From contig JARGFH010000032.1 in assembly GCA_029210695.1 (NCBI GenBank), positions 1 to 43,027 of the forward strand: 43,027 nucleotides of DNA, given 5' to 3'. The DNA comes from Acidimicrobiia bacterium (GTDB lineage: Bacteria; Actinomycetota; Acidimicrobiia; Spongiisociales; JAHEDJ01). Both the position numbers and the translations under genes were made by a program. Position 1 is the stretch's first letter. Each line of letters begins with the position of its first letter. The notes beneath the pieces were generated by a model. It saw only the letters and a program-made list of their open reading frames with translations. It was not told the DNA's origin and did no database searches. Of the stretch, positions 14,119 through 22,217 are shown in pieces.

Positions 14119-15135
14119 TTAACGAACTTCCCAGAACTCCCCGACCGCTCTTTCCGCCAACTCGAGAGATCGCCAGGCGGCGGGTTCGGACTCGCCGTGG
14201 GATGAAGCGTTCGGATCGATGACCCCGGCGAAGCCGGCGAACGTAGCCGCCACCGAGTCGCGAATCGCATCCAGGTTATAGCCGCCCTCGAGGAACACGA
14301 TGGTCCGACCGGAAGGAACGAGGTCGACGAGGGAGTTGGCCATGTACGCGTAGTCGGCCTCGATCAGCTTCACGTCGGCCAGCGGATCGTTCAGGTGTGC
14401 GTCGTACCCGGAGCTGACGAGCACCCAATCAGGCTTGAACTGCCGTGTAACCGGCAGCACGATACGGCGGAAGGCTTCGCGGTAGACGTCTCCTGTCGTT
14501 CCGCCGGGGACCGGGATGTTGATGGTCCTCCCGGCGCCGGGCCCGTAGCCGAGTTCGTCCAGCCAGCCGCCGCCCGGGTAGTACGGGAACTGGTGGATCG
14601 ACAGATACAGGATCCGTCCGTCGGAGATGAACAGGTCCTGCGTTCCGTTTCCGTGATGCACATCCCAATCGACGATGGCGACCCTTTGCCCTCGATCCGT
14701 GAGATAGCGGGCAGCCAATGCGATGTTGTTGAATATGCAAAACCCCATCGCCCGGTTGGCGAGTGCATGGTGACCGGGGGGTCGAACCAGGCAGAAGGCG
14801 AGGTCTGCTACTCCCTCCTCCAGACGGTCCACCGCCAGCGGCCCGGCTCCCGCCGCCCGGAGCGCCGCCTCCCAGGACGCCGCTACCGCGTATGTATCAG
14901 AATCGAGGTCGCCCCCGCCGGCGGAGCAGAACCCTTCGATTGCACTCACGTATTCAGCCGTATGCAGAGTCTGAAGCAAGTTGAAATCCACGGGACCGGC
15001 TTCTCCGTCGACTATGTCGACCGGAGCGAGTTCGAGCCCGGCTCTGGCAGCAATCAGCCGATCGGGTCGCTCGGGGTGCCAGGCGCGTTGCTCGTGCAAC
15101 AGGAAGGAAGGATGTCCAACGGCCAAGACTCGCAT
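14119..15135 (-). CDS. Histone-deacetylase-superfamily amidohydrolase
   Basis: Zinc hydrolase of the HDAC / acetoin-utilisation (AcuC) / acetylpolyamine amidohydrolase family. The active site is complete: RPPGHHA with the paired histidines, DWDVHHGNGTQ with zinc ligands Asp and His, YDAHLNDPLA with the third zinc ligand, and EGGYN near the C-terminus. 338 residues from ATG 15135 (MRVLAVGHPSFLLHEQ); an upstream extension to 15291 overlaps the divergent promoter region. The substrate (acetyl-lysine protein or acetylpolyamine) cannot be told from sequence. It is divergent from a GNAT acetyltransferase gene, suggestive of an acetylation/deacetylation pair but not proof. Confidence 0.9.
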   Translation of the reverse strand: MRVLAVGHPSFLLHEQRAWHPERPDRLIAARAGLELAPVDIVDGEAGPVDFNLLQTLHTAEYVSAIEGFCSAGGGDLDSDTYAVAASWEAALRAAGAGPLAVDRLEEGVADLAFCLVRPPGHHALANRAMGFCIFNNIALAARYLTDRGQRVAIVDWDVHHGNGTQDLFISDGRILYLSIHQFPYYPGGGWLDELGYGPGAGRTINIPVPGGTTGDVYREAFRRIVLPVTRQFKPDWVLVSSGYDAHLNDPLADVKLIEADYAYMANSLVDLVPSGRTIVFLEGGYNLDAIRDSVAATFAGFAGVIDPNASSHGESEPAAWRSLELAERAVGEFWEVR

Positions 15136-15224
15136 GGTGCCTACTTTGCCACATGCTGCGCCCGTCGCCCCAGCATCTACTCTGGTTATGTGCAAAACAG
15201 CTATCTGCCCGGACAGACGATTTC

Positions 15225-15956
15225 GTGACGGGCCGCTTGAAACTTCGCGGCACCTGGCCGGGGCCGATCGCGCTGCGGCGGGGATGGGCACTTGCTACCG
15301 CCCGACCCTGGAACGACGAGAGTCCCGACGCGCACCTCCGGCTGATCCGGGGAAGTGCCGAGTTCCTGGAGTCCGCCGCCGCCGCCGTCCCGGTTGGAGG
15401 CGGCGCCGTGCTCTCCCCTCCCCTGGCGTCCGGGAGCACCGCGATCTGGGAGGAAGCCGGGTTTCGACCGCACCTCGTGCTGGACATGTTCCAGCGTGAA
15501 CTTCTCGCCGGGGCAACGCCCCCAACCGTCCCGGTGCTGGCGGGCGAAGAGGGAGAGTGGGACCATGCCATCGAGATCGATCGCGCCGCGTTCGAACCGC
15601 TGTGGCGATTAGGGGCGACAGGATTGAAGGAAGCATTGAACGCAACGCCGACATCGGTGTTCTTGACCGTGCGCGGCGACACAGGGAACACGGTGGGGTT
15701 TGCGATCGTCGGGGCCGGGGCGGCCACCGGCTATCTCCAGCGCGTCGCAGTCGATCCGGACCATGCCAGACAGGGGTACGGCAGGGCACTCGTCCGCGCC
15801 TCGCTCGGTTGGGCACGGCAGCACGGCTGTCGCACGATGTTGCTCAACACACAGCCGGAGAACGAACCGGCCGGCCGGCTCTACGAGTCGGAGGGCTTCA
15901 CCCGCGTGGCAGCAGGACTGGTTATCTGGAGTCGCGACGGACGGTCGGAACCATGA
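15225..15956 (+). CDS. GNAT-family N-acetyltransferase
   Basis: Acetyl-CoA-dependent acetyltransferase of unknown substrate. The C-terminal GNAT core shows YLQRVAVDPDHARQGYGRALV, the acetyl-CoA pyrophosphate loop (Q/RxxGxG/A), then LNTQPENEPAGRLYESEGF. The N-terminal ~100 residues are a degenerate half and may be a second, inactive GNAT fold. The start is uncertain: GTG 15225 leaves 89 bases for divergent promoters, whereas ATG 15153 would leave only 17. Its TGA overlaps the degV ATG (ATGA), so the two are probably one operon. Confidence 0.82.
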   Translation: MTGRLKLRGTWPGPIALRRGWALATARPWNDESPDAHLRLIRGSAEFLESAAAAVPVGGGAVLSPPLASGSTAIWEEAGFRPHLVLDMFQRELLAGATPPTVPVLAGEEGEWDHAIEIDRAAFEPLWRLGATGLKEALNATPTSVFLTVRGDTGNTVGFAIVGAGAATGYLQRVAVDPDHARQGYGRALVRASLGWARQHGCRTMLLNTQPENEPAGRLYESEGFTRVAAGLVIWSRDGRSEP

Positions 15957-16786
15957 TCCGGATCATCACAGATTCCTCGTCGGATCTTCCAGCGCAGGTC
16001 GCCGAGCAATACGGTGTGGACGTTGTTCCGCTCACGATCCGCTTTGGAGATGAGGAGTTCGTCGATCGGAGCACTCTCACGGCGGCCGGATTCTGGGACC
16101 GGCTGGTGACTGCCGACCAACTACCGGAAACGGCGGCGCCGAGTGCCGGTCTGTTCGAAGAGCGGTATCGGACGATGGCGAACGAGGGGGCGTCCGGCAT
16201 CGTCGTGATCACGATTTCCTCGCATCTGAGCGCCACCTACCAATCGGCGGTCATCGCCGCGGAGCGCCTGTCGGGGGACATCCGCATCAAGGTGATGGAC
16301 TCCCGGAGCGTCGGTATGGGACTCGGCTTGCCCGTTCTCGAGGCGGCCGGGTACGCGGCCGAAGGAGCCGGCTTCGACGACGTCGCCACCCGTGCTGCCG
16401 GGGCCGCACGGTCCACCAAAGTAATCGCTGCACTCGACACTCTCGAATACCTCAAACGGGGCGGGAGGATCGGAAACACGCAGGCCTTCTTCGGGAGTCT
16501 CCTCAACATCAAGCCGTTGATCACGTTGGAAGATGGGGTCGTCTCCCCGTTCGGACGGGTCAGGACGCGGACCAAAGCAATTGCTGCGCTCGAGGAGCGA
16601 GTGGCGGCACTTGGTCCGCGGATCCGGGCCGCCGCTCTCTTCCACGGTGCAGCACCAGACATCGAGTCGATCACCGCCCGGATCGAACCGCATCTGAACT
16701 CCCGTCTCATCGTCACCCTGCTCGGAGCCGTCGTCGGAACCCACACCGGGCCCGGCACGGTCGGGATCGCCTACCTCACCGGTTGA
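15953..16786 (+). CDS. DegV-family fatty-acid-binding protein
   Basis: DegV/FakB proteins bind a fatty acid and in some bacteria present it to a fatty-acid kinase. The 277-residue sequence starts MIRIITDSSSDLPAQVAEQYGV and contains TISSHLSATYQSA and SLLNIKPLITLEDGVV, both diagnostic. The open frame upstream of 15953 overlaps the GNAT gene in another frame and is not used. No FakA-like kinase gene is nearby, so its partner is not identified here. Confidence 0.9.
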   Translation: MIRIITDSSSDLPAQVAEQYGVDVVPLTIRFGDEEFVDRSTLTAAGFWDRLVTADQLPETAAPSAGLFEERYRTMANEGASGIVVITISSHLSATYQSAVIAAERLSGDIRIKVMDSRSVGMGLGLPVLEAAGYAAEGAGFDDVATRAAGAARSTKVIAALDTLEYLKRGGRIGNTQAFFGSLLNIKPLITLEDGVVSPFGRVRTRTKAIAALEERVAALGPRIRAAALFHGAAPDIESITARIEPHLNSRLIVTLLGAVVGTHTGPGTVGIAYLTG

Positions 16787-16834
16787 TGCCCAACGTCACC
16801 CTTCCAACCAGTTAGCGTCGACACAGAGGTACCA

Positions 16835-18139
16835 GTGCCCCCACGCCTACCAGAGCGATATCAGTTCGAAGTCCGCCTCGGTCGCGATCGTGACATCGAG
16901 GAATGGCTCGCAACCGATACCGCCCTCGATCGGCCGGTGCTGATCCGAATTCTCGGCCCGGAAACGAGCGAGGAACGCCAAGCGGAGTTCTTTGAGGCAG
17001 TCCGTGGTGCTTCCAGCGCAAACCACACCCACCTCGCCTCCGTCTTCGCGGCGGATCGTCTCCCCGATGGTGCCTATTCGGTTTCTGAGTGGGCGGGAGG
17101 GATAACGCTTGAACACCGAAGGGAAGCAGGCGACACGATGCCGGTGCATGAGTTCCTTCCCAACGCCGCCGGACTGGCAGAGGCACTCGCAGCACTCCAC
17201 GAGCGTGGGATTCTGCACGGATCGATAGACGAGAAGTCGATCTTCTTCTCGCTGGCCCATCCCGCCAAACTCGCCGGCTTCGGGCGGCACGCGGAAGGCG
17301 CAAGCGCCAGCAAGGACGTTCGGGACCTCGCCACCACCCTCACCACGGCGGTCACCGGCTCCGCTTCGCATGACATCGCTCCATCGCAAATGGTTGACGG
17401 CCTGTCACCCGGTGTCGACCGGATCCTCAGCAGAGCAAGGGCCGGAGGCCTCGATGCGGCAGGCCTGGCCGAACTCTTGCGCGCCGCTCCAAGTTCAACC
17501 CTGCCGGGAGCAACGCCCGAACGAACCGTCTCCTGGAGGTGGATCCTGCCCGCCGTCGCCATGCTCGGCACCGCGATCATCCTCTTCCTGGTCGGACGTT
17601 CGCTCAACACGGGATCACAGGATCCGCTCATGTTTCCAATCTCGCCCAGAGGCACCATTTCCGAGACATCAACAACCACTACAACGACCGAGCAGGCCGG
17701 GACTCCCTCATCGAGCGTGTCCGTCGTCGATGTCCGCATCTTCGACCCCGAGGGGGACGGCGCGGAGCACAACCTGGAGATACCGAACCTCACGGACGGA
17801 ACCACCTCGACCTCGTGGACCACCGAGCGCTACAACGATCCCCTCCCTCTGGTCAAACGCGGGCTCGGCTTCGCCCTGGAGGTGGACGGAACACCGACGG
17901 GAGTCGAGCTTCTCGGCTCGACGGACGGGATGTCGTACCGGCTTCTCTGGGCTCGAACGTTCGGTGATACGATCGACGATTGGGAGCCCGTTGCCGGCGG
18001 TTCGATTCGAGACGGACGCGGATCAATCCAACTCCCGGGCAGGGCAGATGGATTCTGGCTCGTGTGGATCACCGACCTGCCCGCCGATCCGGAAGGCGGG
18101 TATGTCGGGGGCATCTCCGAAGTACGCTTCCTGCCATGA
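16835..18139 (+). CDS. Membrane-anchored pseudokinase (MviN/Rv3910 C-terminal type)
   Basis: Residues ~1-215 have a protein-kinase-like fold without catalytic residues. The beta-3 lysine position reads VLIRIL, the HRD loop reads LHGSIDEKSI and DFG reads GFG. One membrane helix follows (about 233-255, WILPAVAMLGTAIILFLVG), then a Ser/Thr linker and an exported discoidin-like domain. This is the layout of the C-terminal part of mycobacterial Rv3910, where the pseudokinase is fused behind the lipid II flippase MurJ and is known to recruit FhaA. Here the MurJ half is absent; the GTG start at 16835 has AGAGG just upstream. It overlaps sigM by ATGA. A role in regulating wall synthesis is inferred. 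Confidence 0.8.
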   Translation: MPPRLPERYQFEVRLGRDRDIEEWLATDTALDRPVLIRILGPETSEERQAEFFEAVRGASSANHTHLASVFAADRLPDGAYSVSEWAGGITLEHRREAGDTMPVHEFLPNAAGLAEALAALHERGILHGSIDEKSIFFSLAHPAKLAGFGRHAEGASASKDVRDLATTLTTAVTGSASHDIAPSQMVDGLSPGVDRILSRARAGGLDAAGLAELLRAAPSSTLPGATPERTVSWRWILPAVAMLGTAIILFLVGRSLNTGSQDPLMFPISPRGTISETSTTTTTTEQAGTPSSSVSVVDVRIFDPEGDGAEHNLEIPNLTDGTTSTSWTTERYNDPLPLVKRGLGFALEVDGTPTGVELLGSTDGMSYRLLWARTFGDTIDDWEPVAGGSIRDGRGSIQLPGRADGFWLVWITDLPADPEGGYVGGISEVRFLP

Positions 18140-18717
18140 CGGCACGCTCCGGCGAAGACCTCGCCCTGGTACACCGGTTCGTCGGTGGCGACAGGTCGGC
18201 GTTCGACGCGCTCGTCCGAGCCCATGAGGACCGCGTCTTCTCGGTCTGTCTGCGGGTGATGACCAACCGCGAGGCGGCACTCGACGCTACGCAGGAGACC
18301 TTTCTGACCCTGTACCGGAAAGCCGATCGTTTCACCGGGCAGGCTGCTTTCTCCACCTGGCTCTACCGGGTCGCCGTCAACACCTGCTACGACCTGCTGC
18401 GCAAGGAGAAGCGGCGCAGGGCAGATCCGCTGCCGGAGCACCTCGAGCCGGTTGACGCGAGAGGAGCAGACGGCTTCACATCGGCGGAGCTTCGCCCCGA
18501 CCTCACAAAGGCCCTGGCACGGATCCCCGACGAGTTTCGAGTCGCGGTCATTCTCTCCGACCTGGAGGATCGATCGATTGCCGAGATCGCCGAGGTTCTC
18601 GACATACCGACCGGGACGGCCAAATCCAGGATCTTTCGCGGTCGGAGGCTCCTCGCCGACATCTTGCGGAACCAAGACGACGGTCCGCGACGTCCAAGGA
18701 ACGATCAAGATGCATGA
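18136..18717 (+). CDS. sigM: ECF sigma factor, SigM-like
   Basis: RNA polymerase sigma factor of the extracytoplasmic-function group, 193 residues. Region 2 is in the first half (FDALVRAHEDRVFSVCLRV, then DATQETFLTLYRKADRF and FSTWLYRVAVNTCYDLLR) and region 4 near the end (VILSDLEDRSIAEIAEVLDI with GTAKSRIFRGRRLL as the DNA-recognition helix). The gene order with pseudokinase upstream and anti-sigma, trxB and trxA downstream is that of mycobacterial sigM. The ATG at 18136 overlaps the preceding stop; the following anti-sigma gene overlaps its end by eight bases. Confidence 0.92.
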   Translation: MTARSGEDLALVHRFVGGDRSAFDALVRAHEDRVFSVCLRVMTNREAALDATQETFLTLYRKADRFTGQAAFSTWLYRVAVNTCYDLLRKEKRRRADPLPEHLEPVDARGADGFTSAELRPDLTKALARIPDEFRVAVILSDLEDRSIAEIAEVLDIPTGTAKSRIFRGRRLLADILRNQDDGPRRPRNDQDA

Positions 18718-19540
18718 GCACAACTTCGACCTCATCGCCGCCTTTGCGGACGGCACGGCTTCCCGGGAGGAGGCCGTTGAGGCAGAACGCGCGGTCGGGA
18801 GTTGCTCTGAGTGTGCTGCTGAGCACGAAGCCCAGCTCGCCGTACTCGAGGTCCTCCGAGCTGCTCCGGCCGTTTCAATGACCGACATAGAACGTGGCGC
18901 CCTGCACCGCTCGCTCGCCGAGGCCCTCCCGGCCCGACCGGTCGGATGGTTCTCTAGATATGCCCCTCGTATCGCCGCCGTCGCCGCCGGATTTGCAGTC
19001 GTCGGCCTGGCTTCAGTTGCCATGCTCGGCCAGCTCACCGGAAACGACACGGCGGACGACGACTATGCAACCTCAGCCGAACTCTCTTCGGCTCGCAGTC
19101 AGATAGGAGATGCTGAGGCTCCTTCGCCCGTCGCTGAGGAAATGCTGTCCCAGGCGGATGCGCCGGGAACCTCCGACGATGCTCTCCAGTATTCGGCTGA
19201 GGGCGCCGGCGGCGATGGAACGGCACCCGATACCGCCACCACGACTGCGGCCGGGGCTCCGGCAGAAGTCGTTGAACTGACCGGGGCCGACCTAGAGGAC
19301 CTGGCAGACCTGGCCGTCACTAAAGAGATCCTGGAGCAGTTTGCCGTCGTGTCCGAGATGGTCAAGACATCCTGCCCGGAGCAGCTCCCGGACCAACCCC
19401 AGTTGGAGCTTGCCGCCGAGGTCGTGTTCGAAGGCGAACCCGCCTTCGTAGTTGTTTACACCACCGCCGCCGAGAGGGTGGCCCTGGCATTGTCCCTCCA
19501 GGACTGCTCGGTTCTCGGCGAGTTCGTCTCAACGCCTTAG
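18710..19540 (+). CDS. Membrane anti-sigma factor with zinc-finger-like N-terminus
   Basis: Probable regulator of the SigM-like factor encoded just before it. The N-terminal ~45 residues hold a His...CxxC arrangement (MHEHNF with GSCSECAAEHEA) of the anti-sigma zinc-finger type. One membrane helix follows at about 80-103 (RIAAVAAGFAVVGLASVAML), then an extracellular low-complexity Ala/Thr/Glu region and a C-terminal folded part with two cysteines (SCPEQ and LQDCSV). 276 residues. The start is ATG 18710; the frame extends upstream but overlaps sigM. Equivalent to mycobacterial Rv3912 by position. Confidence 0.85.
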   Translation: MHEHNFDLIAAFADGTASREEAVEAERAVGSCSECAAEHEAQLAVLEVLRAAPAVSMTDIERGALHRSLAEALPARPVGWFSRYAPRIAAVAAGFAVVGLASVAMLGQLTGNDTADDDYATSAELSSARSQIGDAEAPSPVAEEMLSQADAPGTSDDALQYSAEGAGGDGTAPDTATTTAAGAPAEVVELTGADLEDLADLAVTKEILEQFAVVSEMVKTSCPEQLPDQPQLELAAEVVFEGEPAFVVVYTTAAERVALALSLQDCSVLGEFVSTP

Positions 19541-19580
19541 CCTGGTCCCTGCCGCGTGCTCGGCCGCTAACCTCTGGTCC

Positions 19581-19865
19581 ATGGACGAATTCGCTATCAA
19601 GTTCGCCGATTTTCTCGAGAACACCACAACGAAGGTGCGGGAGATGACGGTCGACCGCATCAGCCGTGTGCTCAAGATTGCCGCCCTCGGACTCGTGGCA
19701 GCCACTCTGGGCCTCATTGCGGTTGTCTATCTATTCATCTCAATCATCCGTGCCCTCGCCGTCCCGCTCTCCGCTGCCGGTGCTTTCGCCGTGGTCGGGG
19801 GATTATTCCTGGCCGGCGGTGCGTTCATGTGGTGGAAGAGAACAAGGGAACCTGAGGAAAACTAG
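19581..19865 (+). CDS. Small two-helix membrane protein
   Basis: 94 residues with an amphipathic N-terminus ([30 protein letters not shown] is hydrophilic), two hydrophobic segments at about 34-56 and 61-82, and a charged end ([11 protein letters not shown]). It resembles the small phage-holin/DUF-type membrane proteins found beside trxB in some actinomycetes, but I do not recognise a named family. It lies two bases before trxB. A TAACCT hexamer (19568-19573) seven bases before the ATG suggests its own leaderless promoter. Confidence 0.75.
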
Positions 19866-19867
19866 AC

Positions 19868-20791
19868 ATGCCCGAAAGAGTCATAATCATCGGGTCCGGC
19901 CCCGCCGGACTCACAGCAGCGTTGTATGCAGGTCGTGGCGATCTCGATCCGCTCGTCTTTGAGGGCAGCCAGGCAGGCGGCCAGCTGATGATCACCACCG
20001 GCGTTGAGAACTTCCCCGGTTTTCCGGATGGGATCATGGGTCCCGAGCTGATGGAACGCGTGCGCAAGCAAGCCGAACGATTTGCTCCCCGGATCCACAC
20101 TGTCGACGTTACGAAGGTCGATCTCTCGACCCGGCCCTTCAGGGTCTGGGTGGACGCGGATGAATACGAGGCCGAATCAATCATCATCGCCACCGGGGCG
20201 TCCGCCCGTTGGCTCGGCATTCCGGGGGAAGAGAAACTCCGGGGGCGCGGCGTATCAGCCTGCGCCACCTGTGACGGTTTCTTCTTCCGTGACAAAGAAC
20301 TGGTCGTCGTGGGTGGCGGTGACTCCGCCATGGAGGAGGCGCTGTTCCTGACCAAGTTCGCATCCAAGGTGACGGTAATCCACCGCCGGGACGAGTTCCG
20401 CGCTTCGGCCATCATGGCCAGACGCGTCCTCGAGCACGAGAAGATCGAGGTGCTCTGGAACACAACAATCGTCGAGGTCTTGGGCGACGACGGGGTTACG
20501 GGCGTCCGGATCAAGAACGTCGAATCGGGTGAAGTGACCGACATGCAAACCGATGGGTACTTCGTAGCCATCGGTCACGAGCCCAACACGGGGATCTTCA
20601 AGGGCCAACTGGCGTTGGACGAGGCGGGCTATATCGAGCTGCGAGGCGATGGTTCAACAGCTACCTCCGTTGAGGGGGTCTACGCCGCCGGCGACGTGGC
20701 CGATCACATCTACCGGCAAGCAATCACCGCGGCCGGTACCGGCTGCCAGGCAGCCATCGACGCCGAACGCTGGCTCGCCGACCAAAGCTGA
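19868..20791 (+). CDS. trxB: Thioredoxin reductase
   Basis: FAD- and NADPH-dependent reductase that keeps thioredoxin reduced. FAD motif [17 protein letters not shown] at the N-terminus, redox pair CATCDG near residue 135, NADPH motif [15 protein letters not shown], and the second FAD-binding block [23 protein letters not shown] at the C-terminus. 307 residues, the normal low-Mr bacterial length. GAGGAAA precedes the ATG. Directly followed by trxA. Confidence 0.97.
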
Positions 20792-21248: not shown

Positions 21249-22217
21249 ATGCGACTGTACCGAGTCGGAGATTCCGGCGAGCCGATCCGAGACATTCAGG
21301 GTCGGCTCTCGTCGTTGGGCTTCGATTGTTCACCCGACCCCCGCGGAGAGTTTCTCGACGGCACCGCCGCTGCTGTCATTTCTTTCCAACAGATTCGTGG
21401 GTTGGACCCGGACGGCATCGTAGGCTCGGACACCTGGCGTTCCCTGTACGAGGCGGGTTTTCGTCTCGGCGATCGGATCCTCTATCACCGTCGGCCGATG
21501 CTGCGCGGAGATGACGTTGAAGAACTGCAACGACGCCTCAACGCACTGGGTTTCGACGCAGGAAAGGTCGATGGCATCTTCGGACCCGATACTGCACGAG
21601 CGATGATCGATTTCCAGACCAATCGCGGCATGCCGGTAGACGGAACTGCCGGCCCCGAAGTGATCGCAGAGCTGCAGTCCGTGAGCAAAGCCAGCCGCAA
21701 GACGGGACGCGAGGCCGTACGGGAACGAGAATGGATGCGTAATCTCCCTCGCTCATTGGTCGGGAGCCGGGCCTGCTTCGACCCCTCTTGTAGAGATGAC
21801 GTGGAGGCGGCGGCCGCCTGGGCAATGGCTTCTGCCGCAGCTAAGATCTTCCAGGTGTTGGGAGGACGACCGCTCTTCTCGCGCGGTGTCGACGTTTACT
21901 CGACTGAGTCGATTCGGGCTCGCCGGGCAAATCGTATGGGGGCAGATCTGATCGTCTCGTTGCGGCTCCCCCAGGCGGACAAACCCGGGGTCTACTTCTT
22001 CGCTTCCGCGATGAGCCGCAGCGATGCTGGGGCGCTGCTTGCCGCCTCAATCGCGTCTCGCCTCGACCTACCGATCGGCGGACGGGCCGCTCCCATCCTC
22101 AAGCACACCAGATCGCCGGCAGTGATCGTTGCGCACCCGACGCTGGGACCGGAACACGCGAAAGGATTGGTCGCCGGTATCAACGGCTTCTTTGTCGACG
22201 CCGGCGATCAGGAATAG
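21249..22217 (+). CDS. cwlM: CwlM-like peptidoglycan-binding protein with dead amidase domain
   Basis: Two tandem peptidoglycan-binding repeats (about 1-65, LGFDCSPDPRGEFLDGTAAAVISFQ, and 80-145, LGFDAGKVDGIFGPDTARAMIDFQ) precede an amidase_3-like domain. The zinc ligands are missing: the usual DPGHGG reads FDPSCRDD (near 175) and the SxH motif reads SLRLP (near 238). In mycobacteria CwlM is a non-enzymatic cytoplasmic activator of MurA (and binds FhaA when phosphorylated), encoded at this same position after trxC. No signal peptide is seen, which fits a cytoplasmic role. Function is inferred from synteny and the lost ligands. It overlaps the end of parB tail to tail by ten bases. Confidence 0.85.
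   Translation: MRLYRVGDSGEPIRDIQGRLSSLGFDCSPDPRGEFLDGTAAAVISFQQIRGLDPDGIVGSDTWRSLYEAGFRLGDRILYHRRPMLRGDDVEELQRRLNALGFDAGKVDGIFGPDTARAMIDFQTNRGMPVDGTAGPEVIAELQSVSKASRKTGREAVREREWMRNLPRSLVGSRACFDPSCRDDVEAAAAWAMASAAAKIFQVLGGRPLFSRGVDVYSTESIRARRANRMGADLIVSLRLPQADKPGVYFFASAMSRSDAGALLAASIASRLDLPIGGRAAPILKHTRSPAVIVAHPTLGPEHAKGLVAGINGFFVDAGDQE

Follow-up and report, generated by a model that had tools for sequence, protein, structure and literature searches.

A stand-alone membrane pseudokinase of the Spongiisociales occupies the place of a receptor kinase that appears intact in most other families of the Acidimicrobiia

In Mycobacterium tuberculosis, Thr947, which follows the kinase fold of the MurJ-fused pseudokinase, is the reported site of the phospho-switch between PknB and FhaA. 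The protein concerned, Rv3910 or MviN (PDB 3OTV, 3OUN and 3UQC; ActPs3 in PMC12599244), carries a tryptophan, Trp789, that fills the ATP pocket (accessible text of PMC12599244), and a linker of 140 residues is bound by CwlM in the same organism (accessible text of PMC6180346). The unfused arrangement is already known too, since the S6 legend of PMC10166564, the part of that source used here, records a 'protein kinase family protein' frequently located downstream of an unextended mviN in Actinobacteria. A further membrane pseudokinase, EssB/YukC of type VII secretion, serves as a scaffold (accessible text of PMC12599244); it resembles the protein treated here by that description and belongs to another locus.

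We analyzed a window of 43,027 nucleotides (contig JARGFH010000032.1 of assembly GCA_029210695.1) from a member of the order Spongiisociales, class Acidimicrobiia. All features named below lie on its forward strand. The gene of interest, X (16835–18139), starts with GTG and encodes a protein of 434 amino acids, which the open frame, its residues and an AlphaFold model (mean pLDDT 83.8) identify as a receptor-like membrane pseudokinase. The stand-alone membrane pseudokinase proposed here by the initial annotation was thus borne out. Its cytosolic pseudokinase domain (residues 1–222; 16835–17500) is followed by a presumed single transmembrane helix (residues about 236–256; 17540–17602), indicated by a hydrophobic stretch and by a modeled helix at 237–256, C-terminal to the kinase fold. 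A disordered Ser/Thr-rich linker (residues about 257–293; 17603–17713; pLDDT <50 at 258–292) then leads to an exported β-sandwich resembling CBM32 and F5/8 type C domains, assigned by model and fold search (residues about 295–434; 17717–18136). By sequence comparison, the kinase part is of the PknB type; in Pfam it matched PK_Tyr_Ser-Thr just over the cut-off of that family (E 4e-5), whereas Pkinase stayed under its own. Ranks 1–3 of a Foldseek search with the model were taken by the Rv3910 pseudokinase (3oun, 3uqc and 3otv; 3oun_B with E 1e-11), which was found by fold but was not among the best 60 of 257 matches of a profile sequence search of the PDB. In VIA, X scored practically the same against Rv3910 (3otv_C, Z 23.3 over 222 residues at 2.7 Å) and PknB (Z 23.2). 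The PknB-type PASTA kinases share the plan of kinase, helix and exported domain with X and are the nearest active kinases by sequence and fold; in X, however, the catalytic residues are lost and a CBM32-like domain replaces the PASTA repeats, and the genome possesses a separate PASTA kinase.

The alterations of the catalytic Lys, HRD and DFG that had been noticed in X are all real: VAVK reads VLIR (R38), HRD reads HGS (residues 128–130), DFG reads GFG (residues 148–150), and alignment revealed no active-kinase residues. The α-C Glu and the Asn are missing as well, and the activation segment is nearly gone. This state is general in the order. Across 71 aligned rows, Arg stands for the β3 Lys in every case, at least two of the Lys and the two Asp are lost in all 71 rows and all three in 70, and the distance from DFG to helix F amounts to 0–13 residues in 64 rows as opposed to 36–44 in active rows; the remaining seven rows, with 22–39 residues, are perhaps misaligned. 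Ordinary ATP-driven phosphotransfer is accordingly not to be expected of X, as far as can be inferred from its residues. The hinge, on the other hand, carries Glu85-Trp86 in 71/71 rows. A tryptophan at this position occurs in none of 68 active rows, where the residue is Leu, Phe, Tyr or His, and in 6 of 17 other pseudokinase rows (Fisher p 3e-5, a descriptive value, as the rows are related by descent). Counted from F724 in the PDB construct, Trp86 matches W789 of Rv3910, and by this analogy it may plug the nucleotide pocket in the way reported for Trp789. X thus shares with Rv3910 the kinase fold, the loss of motifs, the short activation segment, the hinge Trp, the C-terminal membrane helix with an exported β-sandwich and, as judged from the loci of family f41, the place beside sigM-trxB-trxA-cwlM. 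It differs in that it is unfused, in that R, HGS and GFG correspond to T, LSI and no counterpart in Rv3910, and in having Glu23 at the place of F724.

When the exported domain was modeled alone from 32 sequences, a pLDDT of 95.9 was reached. Its top match in VIA was an IFT25 chain (Z 13.8), followed by the CBM32 of AlyQ (7d2a, Z 13.6 over 120 residues at 2.4 Å) and a galactose-bound CBM (13.6), and identities to the CBM entries among the VIA rows ranged from 8 to 16%. The model therefore resembles the CBM32/F5-8C fold, from which sugar binding would be a possibility. At least 95% conservation across the 71 rows of the order was seen at 36 positions of the kinase part, including the non-catalytic Glu85-Trp86, and at 17 positions of the exported part, which argues that selection on X is still at work.

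X belongs to a same-strand run that opens with genes for a GNAT acetyltransferase (15153–15956) and DegV (15953–16786), both recognized by Pfam, the ATG of the latter overlapping the stop of the former. After a gap of 48 bases X follows, and its stop overlaps (ATGA) the start of the gene for a SigM-like ECF sigma factor (18136–18717). Next come a probable zinc-finger anti-sigma factor (18710–19540; zf-HC2 below the Pfam cut-off, start assigned by eye) and a gene at 19868–20791 which, going by its sequence, we take to be trxB and which served as the reference for trxB labels in other regions. A CwlM-like protein (21249–22217; two PG_binding_1 and a weak Amidase_3 match in Pfam) is encoded 3.1 kb from X, in agreement with the 3 kb given initially. 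This protein has 322 amino acids and, compared by eye, no tail like the M. tuberculosis CwlM phosphopeptide described in the accessible text of PMC6180346. A consensus scan, by itself weak evidence, found no promoter-like site in 14900–19600. X is thus homologous in place as well as in fold to the Rv3910 module next to sigM, as the initial annotation had it.

The gene order common to class and order is HDAC-GNAT-(DUF6049)-(murJ)-(DegV)-X-sigM-trxB-trxA-cwlM-parB-parA. The interval from GNAT to DegV contains a DUF6049-like gene in relatives belonging to the class, plus murJ in some families, and the window has neither. The DUF6049-like gene is present in most relatives in the class (e.g., L169:3190-5460 and L178:3275-5728, the latter under the Pfam cut-off); at the locus the order lacks it as well as murJ, and it was labeled in none of 70 loci from named genomes of the order. 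Most of these 70 loci, where the contig spans them, read HDAC-GNAT-(DegV in 11)-X-SigM-TrxB-TrxA-CwlM-ParB-ParA.

Within the order, matches at E 0.001 or better were obtained in 58 of 59 relatives; in family f8 (8 genomes) these were only ordinary kinases. Full-length orthologues with 41–91% identity exist in most of the 59 relatives, and none of them contains internal stops. A scan of the contigs of the named genomes with a single protein returned no relative, and an alignment scan of the same genomes returned 74 loci, all from metagenome-assembled genomes that are named mostly as Acidimicrobiia or Actinomycetes/Actinomycetota and in a few cases as 'bacterium' or another phylum. Seventy of the 74 were readable; the other four, lacking an open reading frame with the exported domain, were dropped. 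In family f8, GNAT and/or DegV run straight to SigM in 7 of 8 regions, the eighth being cut. The seven regions without X (L219–L223, L225 and L226) retain sigM, trxB, trxA, cwlM and parAB, and the exported domain is absent from 9/9 f8 genomes searched. X has therefore been cleanly deleted in this one family and is dispensable there.

Outside the order, 85 regions were compared. Forty-eight stem from the 54 genomes of the class with a match (G122, G195, G404, G412, G427 and G439 were left out) and 37 from outside the class; because the latter were chosen among the top-scoring rows for a pseudokinase profile, the share of pseudokinases among them is not a frequency. In many regions murJ, sometimes followed by degV, precedes a stand-alone gene for kinase, helix and CBM32-like domain, after which sigM, trxB, trxA, cwlM, parB and parA follow. 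A fusion to MurJ was encountered in only two of the 85, both from family f41. The initial annotation had regarded X as a module separated from MurJ and had called for a survey of split and fused forms. X is indeed unfused in the window, yet there is nothing special about this in Actinomycetota, and the implied direction of change is wrong, an unfused gene directly downstream of a separate murJ being common in the phylum. We rejected the idea that X is a remnant split from a MurJ fusion, as murJ lies elsewhere in the genome and the stand-alone form is widespread. It rather looks as if the dead, MurJ-fused version of mycobacteria is the later arrangement. The gene of PMC10166564 has the same position, is likewise unfused and presumably belongs to the same family; its S6 legend is silent on domains and catalytic state. 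In the present comparison the gene is intact by its residues in many lineages, whereas in the order X is dead and murJ is gone from beside it. In the open-access literature, searched mostly without full text, we found no published description of intact kinases at this locus or of MurJ displacement in the order.

Among the 48 regions of the class, 44 contain a locus-anchored gene with the Lys, HRD, DFG, α-C Glu, Asn and an activation segment of 36–44 residues; the others are a pseudokinase (L300), a truncated gene (L299) and two genes with intact residues but without the locus context (L270 and L292). In families of the class outside the order, Lys, HRD and DFG are hence kept in 44 of 45 readable locus homologues, on which basis we regard X as derived from an active-looking receptor kinase, with catalysis lost in a single order. 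Most of these families carry, at the position of X, a homologous receptor kinase whose catalytic residues are intact. 'Active' here denotes homologues that look active by their residues, from which activity itself may at most be surmised. Outside the class, 12 active and 14 pseudokinase genes were anchored in the locus, in a sample biased as described. Setting aside 13 regions without locus context and one truncated gene, 71 of the 85 could be classified. Among the active genes, 24 have murJ adjacent, 30 have none in the locus and in two murJ was not judgeable; among the pseudokinases, 12 are adjacent to murJ, two are fused to it and one lacks it. With 30 active genes lacking murJ in the locus and 12 pseudokinases beside it, we rejected the general rule that inactivation accompanies the disappearance of murJ from there. 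Family f42 is mixed, L150 and L153 being active and L157, which has HGA, grouping with both at support 99. Intact kinases with the same exported domain also occur outside this gene order (L151, L156, L158, L159, L162, L164, L166, L167, L175, L177, L270 and L292), so that the architecture of kinase and exported domain is not limited to the locus. The exported domain was found in every locus gene read, which is no independent test, as the domain was part of the search.

In the genome from which the window stems (181 contigs, 97.85% complete), a single strong MurJ was identified on contig C4 (E 3e-68), besides one weak match on C30; the separate murJ that the initial annotation had suggested looking for is therefore present, and the locus itself has none. 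This MurJ is an open reading frame of 552 amino acids that stops about 40 residues after the Pfam match. MurJ was detected in 58 of 59 genomes of the order but in none of the 74 named loci within up to 8 kb on either side of X, and on contigs that carry both, X and murJ are about 121 kb (G020) and 659 kb (G054) apart. In phylogenetic trees with all rows from Actinomycetota, a grouping of the MurJs of order and class was rejected with 58 rows, 18 of them from the order by random draw (AU p 0.012), and again with 51 rows, 12 of them from the order by a chosen list (AU p 8e-5), where f41, f42 and f49 were left out as long branches and other MurJ lineages were added. A tree of TrxB, ParA and ParB, in contrast, favors order plus class (p 0.892), and the MurJs of f10 and f12, which are also encoded away from X, remain in the clade of the class. 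As the MurJ of the order groups apart from that of the class while the neighboring genes group with the class, the native murJ has probably been displaced in the order by a MurJ of another lineage. Fast or extreme divergence is the alternative: the branch leading to the MurJ of the order is long (2.0), and it is to the MurJs of the class that it has its highest identity (32%), though not its best bit score. The MurJs of the order (L180–L208 and L001) stand on a very long branch, separate from the phylum's locus-type MurJs, and are possibly foreign. Those beside X in L150, L153, L157 and L161 (f42 and f49) are also very divergent and yet remain in the locus.

In trees of X, the rows of the order form one clade with support 99. 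The active or pseudokinase state changes three times on the full-column tree and eight times on the exported-domain tree, and a single clade of all pseudokinases was not clearly rejected (AU p 0.084 for all columns, 0.052 for the exported domain), nor was a grouping of order and class (0.357 and 0.347). The gene order with GNAT and DegV, common to the class, speaks for descent of the order's X within the class. The full tree places the order beside the pseudokinases of f41, f36, f45 and f65, which counts against such descent unless long-branch attraction is at work. Long branches limit these trees, and the number of catalysis losses varies with the tree.

What X does has to be considered against the mycobacterial precedent. 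The initial annotation suggested that a free module could act on MurJ or on CwlM in trans; this would parallel the fused domain of mycobacteria, which works in cis. Fold and locus are those of the Rv3910 module, CwlM is encoded nearby, and murJ neighbors 12 of 15 pseudokinase genes outside the order and is fused to two more. Within the order, however, the evidence points away from it. MurJ is apart from the locus murJ of the class while TrxB, ParA and ParB are not, and f10 and f12 retain an intact-looking X with murJ elsewhere. The linker bound by CwlM in M. tuberculosis is without evident counterpart, as the genome's own MurJ ends early and the kinase fold of X begins at the N-terminus. Nor is the Thr947-FhaA switch visible in the order, since no juxtamembrane column has 80% Ser/Thr in 71 rows, some Thr being present in 49. 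FhaA_N was found in 46 of 59 genomes of the order, in 10/11 of f8 but in only 3/12 of f6. Seven of the f6 genomes without it carry full-length X; f6 thus has X without FhaA_N and f8 has FhaA_N without X, so that the two are separable. That X acts on either MurJ or CwlM in trans is therefore unsupported and appears improbable to us. FhaA_N is missing from nine of the 12 f6 genomes but general elsewhere in the order, and in the genome of the window FhaA, a second FHA protein, a PP2C phosphatase, RodA/FtsW, a transpeptidase and the PASTA kinase are encoded in one cluster.

X and sigM look coupled: sigM is the next labeled gene after X in 68 of 70 named loci of the order, and the stop of X overlaps the next start (NTGA) in 55. 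A sensor dedicated to sigma-M, with X binding the anti-sigma factor or sigma-M itself and controlling release, would fit this as well as the scan without a promoter-like site. We nevertheless rate it as rather unlikely, though a more serious contender than action on MurJ or CwlM, because f8 keeps sigM without X and because eleven relatives have X without an adjoining sigM label (L141, L142, L157, L163, L179, L269, L271, L274, L283, L286 and L290), a label that was assigned only at >50 bits against the SigM of the window and could miss a divergent sigma factor. These two observations also mean that the partner of X is not readable from its neighborhood. That X is a dying gene, deprived of catalysis at the displacement of murJ and now being lost, would agree with its clean absence in f8; the uninterrupted orthologues and the 36 positions of the kinase part conserved to at least 95%, Glu85-Trp86 among them, make this very unlikely. 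The chance is slimmer still that X is an unusual enzyme whose kinase fold catalyzes a different reaction, for instance AMP transfer. Switches of this kind are known in other pseudokinases (accessible text of PMC12599244), but X has lost the HRD Asp, the DFG Asp, the Asn and the β3 Lys and has Trp86 where the pocket-filling Trp789 of Rv3910 sits.

Our preferred reading, which we put forward tentatively and at a little under an even chance, is that X is an envelope-sensing one-pass scaffold, with a CBM32-like domain outside and a dead kinase fold inside, that was kept in the order after catalysis had been lost. The exported domain would read the state of glycans or wall precursors, and the dead kinase domain would relay the signal by dimerizing or by binding a cytosolic partner, which might be a true kinase such as the PASTA kinase of the genome or one of its substrates. 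The output could be a tuning of wall synthesis or of the sigma-M envelope response; MurJ in cis would not be needed and FhaA probably not. We infer the sigma-M pathway, the PASTA kinase and CwlM as candidate partners, MurJ less so.

On a wider view, and as a proposition that we consider evenly balanced, an ancestral receptor kinase of the murJ-sigM locus may have been inactivated several times in Actinomycetota, repeatedly with acquisition of the hinge Trp, and its inactivation in the order would have coincided with the displacement of MurJ. 'Several' is put forward only as a possibility, because neither tree of X proves the number. The conserved job of X would not be control of MurJ in cis, since the dead receptor has been kept across many genera without a flippase neighbor. 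The switch formed by PknB, MurJ and FhaA is the standard case for control of wall growth by a pseudokinase, and it has been read from one fused protein. Intact-looking, dead and free, dead and fused, and cleanly deleted forms in living relatives now constitute a natural series, which lets one ask what the substrate of the ancestral kinase was, which signal the outer domain receives, and which function outlasted both catalysis and the flippase neighbor.
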